Source: Robinsoniella peoriensis
GTDB taxonomy: Bacteria; Bacillota; Clostridia; Lachnospirales; Lachnospiraceae
Length of the DNA stretch: 64,000 nucleotides
Assembly: GCF_000797495.1 (NCBI RefSeq)
Contig: NZ_JTGN01000001.1
Coordinates: forward strand, 69,501-133,500
Reading direction: 5' to 3'
The translations under genes were made by a program, and so were the position numbers. Shown here in pieces: positions 26,933 to 30,796 of this stretch (positions within the stretch are counted from its first letter, which is position 1; the number at the start of each line of letters is the position of its first letter). The notes below the pieces were generated by a model. It searched no databases, was not told the origin of the DNA, and saw nothing but the letters and a program-made list of their open reading frames with translations.

Positions 26933-27451
26933 TCAGATTAAGATGATTGCCAGAAACAGCCCTCCCATCACGCCAAGGCAGTGATAAACCCTTGATTTAT
27001 TCTGGTAATTCTGCCTGGCTTGTATACAATTTTCATTTAACTGCTCTAAATACAAGTCAATGTTTCTAAGCTGCATGTCAATATCCAGATAGCCCAGATG
27101 GCTTCCCACCGTTTTCAATTGTTCCAGATCCTCTTTTGCAAGGTAGCAGTGCTCCAGCTTTAAATCCACCCCCTCTTCAAAAATCCTGGAAAGGCTTCTT
27201 CCATCCCGCTTCTCCATTTCCTCTGACAGATATTGCAGAAACCCCTGAAACAACGGGCCTGATCGTTGTCCCACTTTGCCAAACCCTTCTGCCAGCGGTG
27301 TTTTTCCATATTTTATTTCTCCCTGCAGCATTACAAACATACGCTTTAGCTCAGTTAACTGCACTACCCTCTTCTCCAGGTCTTTGCTCATTGAAAAACC
27401 AATCGCCGAGGATGTTGCGATTACCATACCTATTCCCAGCATCTTCAGCAT
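26933..27451 (-). CDS. spoIIIAB: Stage III sporulation protein AB
   Basis: A 172-residue protein with N- and C-terminal membrane segments around a helical domain; ELKRMFVMLQGEIKYGKTPL is the conserved motif, and the structure resembles GspF-type platform proteins. It overlaps spoIIIAA by 7 bases, indicating translational coupling with the ATPase. Confidence 0.94.
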   Translation of the reverse strand: MLKMLGIGMVIATSSAIGFSMSKDLEKRVVQLTELKRMFVMLQGEIKYGKTPLAEGFGKVGQRSGPLFQGFLQYLSEEMEKRDGRSLSRIFEEGVDLKLEHCYLAKEDLEQLKTVGSHLGYLDIDMQLRNIDLYLEQLNENCIQARQNYQNKSRVYHCLGVMGGLFLAIILI

Positions 27452-28410
27452 GAAAGTACCTCCTTTTCATACAGCCTTGTCCCACGTTCATCAAATATTT
27501 CTTTGACCTTGCCTATCTGTTTGTAGTTGTGTAGAATAATATATCTTTCAAATACCCGTTCTAGAACCAGTTTTTGAAGTAATGGTTTTCTTTTTACATC
27601 TTCAATGGAACTTCCATGCACCGTAGCCAGCAGCTTACAGCCGCAATGTATCACGGATTCAATGGCATGAATATCCTCATAGTCTCCAATTTCATCCACG
27701 GCAATAATTCTGGGAGACATAGAACGCACCAGCATCATCATCCCCTCCGCTTTTGGGCAGCAGTCCAGCACATCTGTCCGGATACCCAGATCATTTTGGG
27801 GCACTCCAAGATATGCTCCTCCAATTTCCGACCGTTCGTCTACTACCCCAATCGTACTCCCCTGAAAATAAGAAGTCCCATTGGAAAGCTGCCTGATCAT
27901 ATCCCTTAATAAGGTTGTCTTTCCGCACCTGGGCGGAGAGATAATCAGCGTATGGCAGATTTCATCCCCCTGTATTACATAAGGAAGCACTTCTGTTGCG
28001 CATCCCTTTATCTGATGTGACAAACGGACATTTATAAAAGAAATATACTTCACACTTTTAATCCTTTCCCCATCCATAATAATTTTTCCTGCTATTCCAA
28101 CCCGATGCCCGCCCTGTATTGTAATAAATCCCTGCTTCAATTCATCTTCAAAAGCATATAGGGAATAATTTGAAATATATTCCATCGTCTCAAGAAGTTC
28201 TTTCTTCTGAACCATGTAGCCATCTGCTTCCCTTGTACTTAACCGTCCCTTACCGGAAACGAAATACTCTCTGCCCGCACAGGTAATCAACAGCGGCTTA
28301 TCAACTCTTAGTCTGATCTCCTGGAGTTTTTCAAAATCAACATCTATCTTCTGTAAAATGTCCCGGATTCCCGTCGCAAAAATTCTAACGAAATCATCTT
28401 TTCCTTTCAT
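27445..28410 (-). CDS. spoIIIAA: Stage III sporulation protein AA (secretion-type ATPase)
   Basis: A 321-residue cytoplasmic ATPase related to type II/IV secretion ATPases. Walker A is PPRCGKTTLLRD, then GVVDERSEIGG and Walker B-like PRIIAVDEIGDYED. It probably energises the SpoIIIA-SpoIIQ channel in the mother cell. The start is ATG at 28410 with AGGGGTGA ahead of it; a TTG at 28431 would overlap the predicted sigma-E -10 and lie upstream of the transcript start. First gene of the eight-gene operon. Confidence 0.95.
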   Translation of the reverse strand: MKGKDDFVRIFATGIRDILQKIDVDFEKLQEIRLRVDKPLLITCAGREYFVSGKGRLSTREADGYMVQKKELLETMEYISNYSLYAFEDELKQGFITIQGGHRVGIAGKIIMDGERIKSVKYISFINVRLSHQIKGCATEVLPYVIQGDEICHTLIISPPRCGKTTLLRDMIRQLSNGTSYFQGSTIGVVDERSEIGGAYLGVPQNDLGIRTDVLDCCPKAEGMMMLVRSMSPRIIAVDEIGDYEDIHAIESVIHCGCKLLATVHGSSIEDVKRKPLLQKLVLERVFERYIILHNYKQIGKVKEIFDERGTRLYEKEVLSC

Positions 28411-28429
28411 GCCCTCACCCCTTTTAACC

Positions 28430-28458
28430 AATATATGAGGTTGTACATGAAATATACC
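28430..28458 (-). promoter_or_regulatory. Likely sigma-E promoter of the spoIIIA operon
   Basis: Minus strand GGTATATTT (28458-28450), about 12-13 bases, then CATATATT (28437-28430), close to the sigma-E pattern (-35 with ATATT, -10 CATACAnT). This fits mother-cell expression known for spoIIIA. Confidence 0.6.
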
Positions 28459-28484
28459 TTTAGGAAAATTTTTTTATTCCATCC

Positions 28485-28522
28485 GCAAAAAAAGCCGCAA
28501 AGAGTTTCCCCCTTACAGCTTT
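28485..28522 (-). terminator. Second terminator upstream of spoIIIAA
   Basis: Minus strand AAAGCTGTAAGG pairs (with G-U wobbles) with CTTTGCGGCTTT around the loop GGGAAACT, followed by seven Us. It lies about 55 bases beyond the terminator of the long purine-rich transcript and shields spoIIIAA from read-through, or ends a short RNA of its own. Confidence 0.65.
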
Positions 28523-28574
28523 ATACTTCCCGATCACCGGCAAAGCCCCGCTTTTTGTAAATATATATCAGAAC

Positions 28575-28628
28575 GCAAAAAAATAGGAACGAGCATCAAC
28601 TATACATCACCTTGTTGATACTCGTCCC
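28575..28628 (-). terminator. Strong terminator of the purine-rich transcript
   Basis: Minus strand GGGACGAGTATCAAC pairs with GTTGATGCTCGTTCC (15 pairs, two G-U), 13-base loop, then TATTTTTTT. Confidence 0.85.
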
Positions 28629-29556
28629 TAATGAACTTCAATCATTCTTTTACCTCTTTTTCATCTTTGTAATCTTATTCGTCGACTTTTCTCAATTACA
28701 ATTTCTAAGGTTTTGATTATACCTTAATTCTCCGTTTAAAACTCTTACATTTTAAACTTCTTTTGTTTAAAATCATTCTGTTTTAAACTTCTGTTGTTTA
28801 AATTCCTCGCTTTCTAAGTTTTCATAAAATTCTTAAACTACTTCTGGTTCTGATACTTCATTTCAAACCACTTTGTTAAAATACTTATTTAAACATTTGC
28901 TTTTTAAGTATTGGCTCTTAACTCTTCATCCAAAACCTCTGATCATTTACACCCTGATCAAAAATATTAAATTACTTCCTAAAAACTCCAATCTCTTAAA
29001 CGATTCGTCTAAATTCTTCTACTTCAACTACAATTGCTTAAAACTGCTCACTTCAAACCTCTTGCTGCTTAAAACCTTTTAATTCTTTTTACTTAAATAA
29101 CTTCTTTTAAACTTCTTCTGTTTAAAACTGTTAACTTTAAACTCTTTTGATTCTGAAAGCTGACGCTTTCAAATCGGTTTGTTACATGATTAAAACTTTC
29201 TACCTCTTAACCATTTGTTTCTTGAGCTCTTAAAACTTTATATACATTGCTTACAATGTCATCCGTTCTTGGTTACTTCTGTGTTTTACAAAAGCAACTG
29301 CGCTTAATATTTTGGTGGTCCATACCTCGCTTTCTTAGATTATATCATTTAAACTTACATCTGTTCTCTTCTGTACTTTGTATTTGGTTTACCACATCTG
29401 TATACTGCTTGCTTTCGCTTTTGTTTCTACATTTGCTTATCAACATCTACTTTTCCATTCGTTTCACTTTTGTAAATTAAAATGTTAAGATTAAGTTCCC
29501 ATGGGACTCTCCTCCTTAGTTAATTAAGTTTTAATTGATCTTTTATCTTTTTGTTG
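28575..29556 (-). ncRNA. Candidate long purine-rich non-coding RNA, about 980 nt
   Basis: This stretch is bounded by a perfect consensus sigma-A promoter (29563-29591) and a 15-base-pair terminator (28575-28628), both leftward. Between them the transcribed strand is A/G-rich and C-poor, has stops in all frames, and its longest ORF from ATG that I found is about 33 codons. I count 14 copies of GUUUAA or GUUUUAA, often preceded by AGAA. The element UAGAAAGCGAGG or UAAGAAAGCGAGG occurs twice (around 29325-29338 and 28805-28818). There are small hairpins, for example GAAAGC/GCTTTC near 29156-29171 and AATACTTA/TAAGTATT near 28879-28908. Near the 5' end AAGGAGGAGAG stands before ATG GGA ACT TAA, a three-residue ORF. 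I know no named RNA family like this. A decayed gene or a string of tiny ORFs is the alternative. Confidence 0.6.
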
Positions 29557-29562
29557 TCTTCA

Positions 29563-29591
29563 TTATATTCCCCATAGTCCAATTTGTCAAC
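29563..29591 (-). promoter_or_regulatory. Perfect sigma-A promoter driving the purine-rich transcript
   Basis: Minus strand TTGACA (29591-29586), 17-base spacer, TATAAT (29568-29563). Both hexamers and the spacing are exactly consensus. It faces away from the carbamate kinase gene, across about 190 bases of AT-rich DNA. Confidence 0.85.
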
Positions 29592-29863: not shown

Positions 29864-30796
29864 ATGAAGAAAAAGGTTGTTATTGCACTTGGCCATAAAG
29901 CGCTTGGCACTACATTTCCGGATCAAAAGATTGCAGTTAAAAATTCTGCCAAGATCCTTGCTGATTTAATAGAAGAAGGATGCCAGCTGGTAATTTCTCA
30001 CAGTAATGCTCCCCAGGTAGGGATGATCCATACAGCCATGAATGAATTCGGGAAGGTTCATGAGGATTATACACAGGCTCCTATGTCCGTATGCTCTGCC
30101 ATGAGCCAGGGATATATTGGATATGATTTACAGAATGCAATCCGTGCAGAGTTAATTAAACGCGGTATTTTCAATACGGTAAGCACGATTCTCACACAGG
30201 TTCTGGTGGATCCTTATGACGATGCTTTTTATAATCCCGTTAAGGTAATCGGACGTTATCTTACTGCGGAAGAAGCAGAAGAAGAAGAAAAGAAGGGCAA
30301 CTATGTTATCGAAGAACCCGGCAAGGGTTTCCGCAGAATTGTTGCGGCTCCAAGACCTAAGGATATTATTGAAATCGATGCCATTAAAGCCCTTGTAAAT
30401 GCCGGCCAGATCGTAATCGCATGCGGCGGCGGCGGTATTCCGGTACTGGAACAGGGCAGCGAGCTCAAAGGTGCCAGCGCAATTATTGAAAAAGATTATG
30501 CAGCCGGAAAATTAGCTGAACTGATTGACGCTGACGCATTGATCATCTTAACAAACGAAGAATATGTCTGCATTGATTATAAATCCGATGCACCGAAGGA
30601 ACTCCACCGGATTAGTTCTGCAGAAGCACAGGAACACATTGACCATCATGAATTCGGTGAGGCTGCCATGCTTCCTAAAATTCGGGCATCCATTGATTTT
30701 GTTGCATCCGGCAATGACCGCAAGGCAATTATTACAAATATGGAACATGCCTGTGATGCTTATCTTGGTAAGACGGGTACTGTTATCACAAAATAA
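29864..30796 (+). CDS. arcC: Carbamate kinase family protein (divergent)
   Basis: A 310-residue amino-acid-kinase-fold protein. HSNAPQVGMIHTAM, SAMSQGYIGYDLQNA and IACGGGGIPV are typical of carbamate kinase, which makes ATP from carbamoyl phosphate and ADP in fermentative arginine, agmatine or purine-derivative breakdown. The N-terminal phosphate-binding motif, normally ALGGNAL, is ALGHKAL here (H11, K12). A subgroup of clostridial sequences seems to have this form. It is monocistronic with its own promoter and terminator and no arginine deiminase nearby, so the pathway is open. The symbol is by family only. Confidence 0.85.
   Translation: MKKKVVIALGHKALGTTFPDQKIAVKNSAKILADLIEEGCQLVISHSNAPQVGMIHTAMNEFGKVHEDYTQAPMSVCSAMSQGYIGYDLQNAIRAELIKRGIFNTVSTILTQVLVDPYDDAFYNPVKVIGRYLTAEEAEEEEKKGNYVIEEPGKGFRRIVAAPRPKDIIEIDAIKALVNAGQIVIACGGGGIPVLEQGSELKGASAIIEKDYAAGKLAELIDADALIILTNEEYVCIDYKSDAPKELHRISSAEAQEHIDHHEFGEAAMLPKIRASIDFVASGNDRKAIITNMEHACDAYLGKTGTVITK

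Follow-up and report, generated by a model that had tools for sequence, protein, structure and literature searches.

The window analyzed here is a stretch of 64 kb from the genome of Robinsoniella peoriensis. Within it, the interval between spoIIIAA (27445-28431, minus strand; PF19568, E 1e-147) and a divergently oriented gene of the amino-acid-kinase family (29864-30796, plus strand; carbamate-kinase-like, PF00696, E 1e-24) harbors a candidate RNA gene on the minus strand, with spoIIIAA as its downstream neighbor. A scan of the window identified a perfect sigma-A promoter, TTGACA-N17-TATAAT, at positions 29590-29562 (minus strand). It matches the consensus at 12 of 12 positions, is the only such site in the 64 kb, where 0.03 would be expected by chance, and is conserved in the family described below. 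Transcription is predicted to start at an A in position 29555 (minus strand), 7 nt after the -10 element; the YA at +1 is kept in the family. The transcript would end at an intrinsic terminator (28577-28630, minus strand), which consists of a stem at 28630-28584 followed by seven U (-25.8 kcal/mol, z -8.0). The resulting RNA of about 980 nt (979 nt as folded here), lying within 29590-28577, is rich in A and G and poor in C. Between promoter and terminator no minus-strand ORF longer than 33 aa occurs, and the two plus-strand ORFs of the interval (69 and 77 aa) have no Pfam match. A preliminary description of the locus had proposed an exact-consensus promoter with a spacer of 17, a strong terminator with seven U, a purine-rich and C-poor transcribed strand, the lack of a protein gene, and a position between spoIIIA and a carbamate kinase gene, all of which agree with these results. 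It had also proposed that a second terminator insulates the neighboring genes. A terminator-like hairpin, with a stem of 14 bp and a run of U behind it, is indeed located at 28491-28522 (minus strand), between the RNA gene and spoIIIAA, but within the family it was seen at the window copy alone, so that insulation may be particular to this copy.

The RNA contains three short elements led by a Shine-Dalgarno (SD) sequence, two of which are mini-ORFs. The 5' unit (29491-29517, minus strand) comprises the SD AAGGAGG, AGAGTCCC and ATG GGA ACT TAA, the mini-ORF MGT-stop being located at 29502-29491. The central unit, AATCTAAGAAAGCGAGGTATGGACCACCAAAATATTAAG (29303-29341, minus strand), has no start codon at the conserved place; it is recognized by the unit model R1 with 37.9 bits (E 7e-11 in the window, E-values of such a short profile being rough). 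The 3' unit (28628-28656, minus strand) combines the SD GAGG with a terminal mini-ORF, ATG ATT GAA GTT CAT TAG (MIEVH-stop, 28645-28628), whose stop codon forms the base of the terminator stem. These elements, like the membership in a large family, had been missed in the preliminary description, and its view of the transcript as weakly structured does not hold: the 979-nt RNA folds considerably better than shuffled sequences (z -7.35; -4.8 for the body without the terminator; family mean -1.8). This is due to a long imperfect hairpin in the middle part, where an insert of imperfect GTTTAAA-rich repeats (approximately 28700-29230, minus strand) is predicted to form an extended hairpin. The insert is peculiar to the window copy.

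A blastn search of 61 genomes matched a stretch of 40-65 nt in several relatives, the central unit of the window copy being matched in three of them. One relative (L002, about 320 nt) is syntenic, with spoIIIAA on one side and the same kinase gene on the other; the further ones occupy unrelated places in their genomes. In total, about 190 loci were found to share one plan, namely TTGACA-N17-TATAAT, a start at A, repeated units and a hairpin terminator. A scan with a single-unit pattern, on which the prevalence figure rests, found the unit in 118 of 397 Lachnospiraceae genomes (30%), often in tandem; the reversed pattern gave about a dozen matches as a control, and metagenome-assembled genomes are part of the sample. 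The share is likely an underestimate because the unit profile picks up copies in genera which the pattern overlooked. Carriers include Roseburia inulinivorans, Butyrivibrio fibrisolvens, Anaerobutyricum hallii, Pseudobutyrivibrio, Blautia and Dorea, and some genomes (G167, G307, G346, G391) harbor two or three loci at separate places. In a class-level sample of Clostridia outside the Lachnospiraceae the pattern occurred at control level (2 of about 280 genomes). The one convincing profile match outside the family stems from a genome of a neighboring family of the same order (G842, with a rough E-value of 1e-7); units and SD-led mini-ORFs are present there at about 990-1600 of locus L277 on contig C30, with no obvious terminator nearby. 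A phage or mobile origin was rejected, since no family member was found among the 2.9 million viral contigs of IMG/VR.

Known RNA classes do not account for these loci, as the preliminary description had supposed. No Rfam model reached its gathering score in the window, and relaxed searches of the locus (E<=10) and of 20 relatives (E<=0.5) returned sub-threshold, unrelated matches alone. ROOL, GOLLD, OLE, HEARO, raiA, 6S and tmRNA, which resemble the family as long stand-alone transcripts without a protein gene, were thus rejected, as none matched the locus or the 20 relatives even at the relaxed thresholds. An IMES-4 match at 28470-28564 of the window (minus strand; 26.9 bits versus a gathering score of 48), which spans the second terminator upstream of spoIIIAA, is probably due to chance, as is a His_leader match over the 3' end of another family transcript (L031, 1738-1873; 34.5 bits versus 49). 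The literature searched, which covered few subscription journals, contained no description of the family. Judged from sequence comparison, the window transcript is one copy of a putative RNA gene family that seems not to have been recorded before.

The architecture is well conserved. Among the 107 loci with a promoter call, TTGACA is present in 102 and the 17-nt spacer in 92, the predicted +1 is an A seven bases past the -10 element in 105, and the 45 nt upstream contain 86% A+T. The RNAs are about 140 to 980 nt long with a median near 370 nt, the window copy being the longest among the members with clean terminators, and their bases are 42% A and 13% C. Orthologous pairs share the promoter, the units, the terminal ORF and the terminator stem but have diverged in flanks and spacers, and the terminators of L004 and L054 differ by paired changes. 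Conserved promoters, terminators and units with drifting spacers are what the preliminary description had expected of an RNA gene. Its alternative was a decayed protein gene, to which a chance combination of promoter and terminator may be added. The absence of an ORF in the window copy would suit this explanation, but homologous loci were inspected and none encodes a protein there, and promoter, units and terminator are kept across more than 100 genomes. The family thus refutes a decayed gene, and we regard this possibility as negligible. The plan was also recovered in 88 out-of-sample loci, taken from a separate named collection after removal of duplicates: promoters were present in 78 loci (TTGACA in 66 and a start at A in 73 of these), and terminal mini-ORFs in 46 of the 60 loci with a strong terminator. 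Several of the ten loci without a promoter are evident chance matches (Rhodobacteraceae, Burkholderiales, Dyadobacter). Directly upstream of the family member at L004, positions 309-580 hold a further promoter-to-terminator transcript, similarly purine-rich and with GGACCGG and a strong terminator. No clear unit was found in it, and it is perhaps a diverged tandem copy.

The 3' end of the RNAs follows a common design. A mini-ORF that is preceded by an SD, starts with ATG, TTG or GTG and stops where the terminator stem begins is present in 77 of 87 transcripts, compared to 15.5 such ORFs (maximum 24) in shuffled upstream sequence. Most of these ORFs comprise 5-8 codons; in the g231 genus they are longer, about 13-23 codons as in MDEIFSLEDEYSV and MDAENFNLDDEYSV, and, read by eye, likewise end at the stem. 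The conserved start, frame and stop would agree with a dual-function RNA whose terminal mini-ORF (MDSIV, MIEVH, MDEIFSLEDEYSV) encodes a functional short peptide, the rest serving as its leader, and the same peptides do recur within clades (MDSIV, MIEESK, MKLQEIH, ...EYSV). However, between clades the peptides differ in sequence and range in length from 5 to about 23 aa. Purifying selection on them was rejected, since differences between close pairs are not significantly biased to third positions (28/73, p 0.21). A peptide-coding function would also leave the units without a start codon unexplained and is considered improbable. As far as the sequences tell, frame and stop are conserved and the peptide is not clearly so, which favors the act of translation over its product.

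The stop at the terminator base in nearly all copies is also the geometry expected for control of read-through. In the ampC attenuator of E. coli, a ribosome-binding site, a start codon and an immediate stop lie beside a terminator, and the element is thought to sense ribosome supply. The family RNA resembles it in having these elements next to the terminator, and could by analogy be a leader in which a ribosome on the tiny ORF blocks the adjoining terminator of a downstream gene. However, the ampC attenuator governs its downstream gene, whereas the family has no conserved one. Neighboring genes vary between loci, and among 101 loci only 61 have a co-directional gene downstream, the other 40 having a convergent one, which indicates that the RNA is autonomous rather than a leader. 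In the window the second terminator follows as well. A leader was therefore rejected by the orientation test and is very unlikely, though read-through might yet determine how abundant or how stable the RNA itself is.

The repeated unit, of which an RNA carries 1-11 copies with spacings that cluster at about 50-57 nt, has the consensus AAGRAGGUACRGWCCA-NNN-RAA-ACN-UAA (242 units from 86 transcripts). Its most conserved positions across these units are C10 (98%) and C11 (96%), above those of the SD. The NNN triplet is a start codon (ATG, TTG or GTG) in 96 units, CCN in 103 and something else in 43. Of the 48 internal units with a start codon, 14 have an in-frame stop at +6 and 28 at +9, and there are only seven out-of-frame stops. 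Units without a start codon have the stop at +9 in 107 of 139 cases and almost never at +6, the +6 stop being specific to start units (p 3e-4). This indicates that the stops track the reading frame where a start exists. Thus, 42 of the 48 internal start units are arranged as minigenes, with an SD, a start, 1-3 codons and an in-frame stop. The bar minigenes of phage lambda consist of an SD and a two-codon ORF and are single sites that trap peptidyl-tRNA. They resemble the ATG-GCT-TAA units of the family but form no arrays and have no ORF at a terminator, both of which the family possesses. Of the earlier proposal of a long non-coding RNA, the promoted RNA without a protein gene stands, while the non-coding part has to be qualified, as ORFs of 2-8 codons are conserved in design. 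Codon-like variation of the ACN before UAA was not significant on distinct units. A hairpin in each unit that sequesters the SD (GGAGGU with ACCACC) was rejected because the positions do not covary; the start-less CC units fold slightly better than shuffles.

Both halves of the unit are complementary to the 3' end of 16S rRNA, the invariant GWCC matching the nucleotides just 5' of the anti-SD. The mean computed pairing energy with the 16S tail is about -14.8 kcal/mol for the units versus -11.0 kcal/mol for ordinary ribosome-binding sites of the same loci, and GG1529-1530 of 16S rRNA are paired in about 98% versus 18%, although the former value partly reflects selection, as the units were gathered with a CC-containing matrix. 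Shuffling the part of the unit 3' of the SD reduces this pairing to 54%. The complementarity is therefore an argument of consistency and not a proof; the independent point is only that the conserved GWCC is complementary to 16S rRNA. Units without a start codon pair as strongly as those with one (-15.0 kcal/mol for CC units and -15.8 kcal/mol for units with neither a start codon nor CCN), and both start-less classes thus have the layout of a STAB-SD. Such an element is an SD lacking a start codon, which makes contact with the 3' end of 16S rRNA and stabilizes the RNA (PMC4113751, PMC3997798). The STAB-SD of the cry3A leader of Bacillus thuringiensis is likewise a non-initiating SD in a Firmicute RNA. 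It is, however, one element in an mRNA leader, whereas the family RNA is free-standing and has tandem sites, the GWCC second half and mini-ORFs.

The best reading of these patterns is that the family RNA may be an autonomous ribosome-docking RNA, abundant and binding 30S subunits as a decoy, buffer or sensor; we give this an even chance. Among the functions listed in the preliminary description (sponge, scaffold or ribosome-engaging RNA), engagement of ribosomes would accordingly be the best fit, while a base-pairing sponge fits poorly. Each unit would pair with the whole free 16S 3' tail in two parts, SD with anti-SD and then GWCC with GG(A)U(C), with ACR bulging out between the duplex halves (a bulge of 3-4 nt), and would thereby hold a 30S subunit. 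Such pairing would explain why W is only A or U and why CC is invariant. The CCR units would hold 30S subunits without initiation, as STAB-SD does, start units would allow initiation and release within 1-2 codons, and the terminal ORF would bring one ribosome to the 3' end of the RNA. As a net effect free 30S subunits would be titrated or buffered, or their level reported, and bound ribosomes might shield the naked purine-rich RNA against 5' exonucleases. A more specific version is put forward tentatively: the family may be a new class of regulatory RNA governing translation capacity, in which an rRNA-like promoter drives tandem two-part complements of the 16S tail which capture 30S subunits (or pre-30S particles whose 16S 3' end is free), while start-stop units and the terminal mini-ORF link this capture and the subsequent release to the supply of ribosomes. 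The RNA gene with its near-consensus promoter occurs in many genera of the Lachnospiraceae, a major family in the gut of humans and ruminants. If docking is true, ribosomes would be buffered or sensed by a free-standing RNA, a task that is mostly attributed to proteins, and its start-less and start-stop ribosome sites would be natural, testable parts.

Several features do not fit simple docking. Maximal pairing with 16S rRNA would be provided by GGAGGUGAUCC, which is free of a bulge, and neither the conserved ACR bulge nor the RAA-ACN-UAA that follows start-less units is explained. The purine-rich SD repeats could instead soak up CCUCC-type seeds; by base pairing of its units with the CU-rich seeds of other RNAs, the transcript would then act as a sponge or as a trans-acting small RNA. 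This function would not need the conserved start and stop logic, and on both strands of the window genome no antisense partner or extended complement of the unit exceeded the control; it is therefore quite improbable.

The main rival to docking is a protein partner. AGGUACRGWCC could be the site of an RNA-binding protein that only partly resembles an SD, the RNA serving as scaffold or sponge as CsrB-type RNAs do for CsrA. The conservation peak lies at C10 and C11 and not in the SD, and tandem sites of varying copy number in a stand-alone gene, shared with CsrB and RsmZ, suit a titrating RNA. CsrA itself was rejected as the partner: PF02599 is missing in the window genome and had no match over the cut-off in about 17-18 of 30 carriers, single-contig genomes included. 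The GGA is not invariant in the family site, being absent from 16 of 103, 8 of 43 and 24 of 96 units of the three classes, with R7 and W9 varying, and no covarying stem of the CsrB type was found at the repeated site. Moreover, the in-frame stops that track the starts and the terminal mini-ORF indicate translation. We consider a scaffold for some other protein somewhat unlikely.

The protein reading gains from a second motif, which has no place in the docking model. Thirteen transcripts contain a hairpin with the identical nine-base loop GACGAGAAA on compensating stems of unrelated sequence, which suggests a specific reader of the loop. Shuffled sequences gave no such hairpin and permuted loops almost none. 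At 28675-28683 (minus strand) the window copy has at best a weak, degenerate version, GACGAATAA, with 2 mismatches and a 4-bp stem, which is not present in the local minimum-energy fold. In the g231 genus (L262-L268) a different domain of the type GTGGT...ACCAC is conserved in the spacer. Among the genome-wide matches listed, clear stems with the GACGAGAAA loop occur mainly in the RNA loci, and in two of the thirteen transcripts (L002 and L032) as well as in L272 the loop also caps the terminator.
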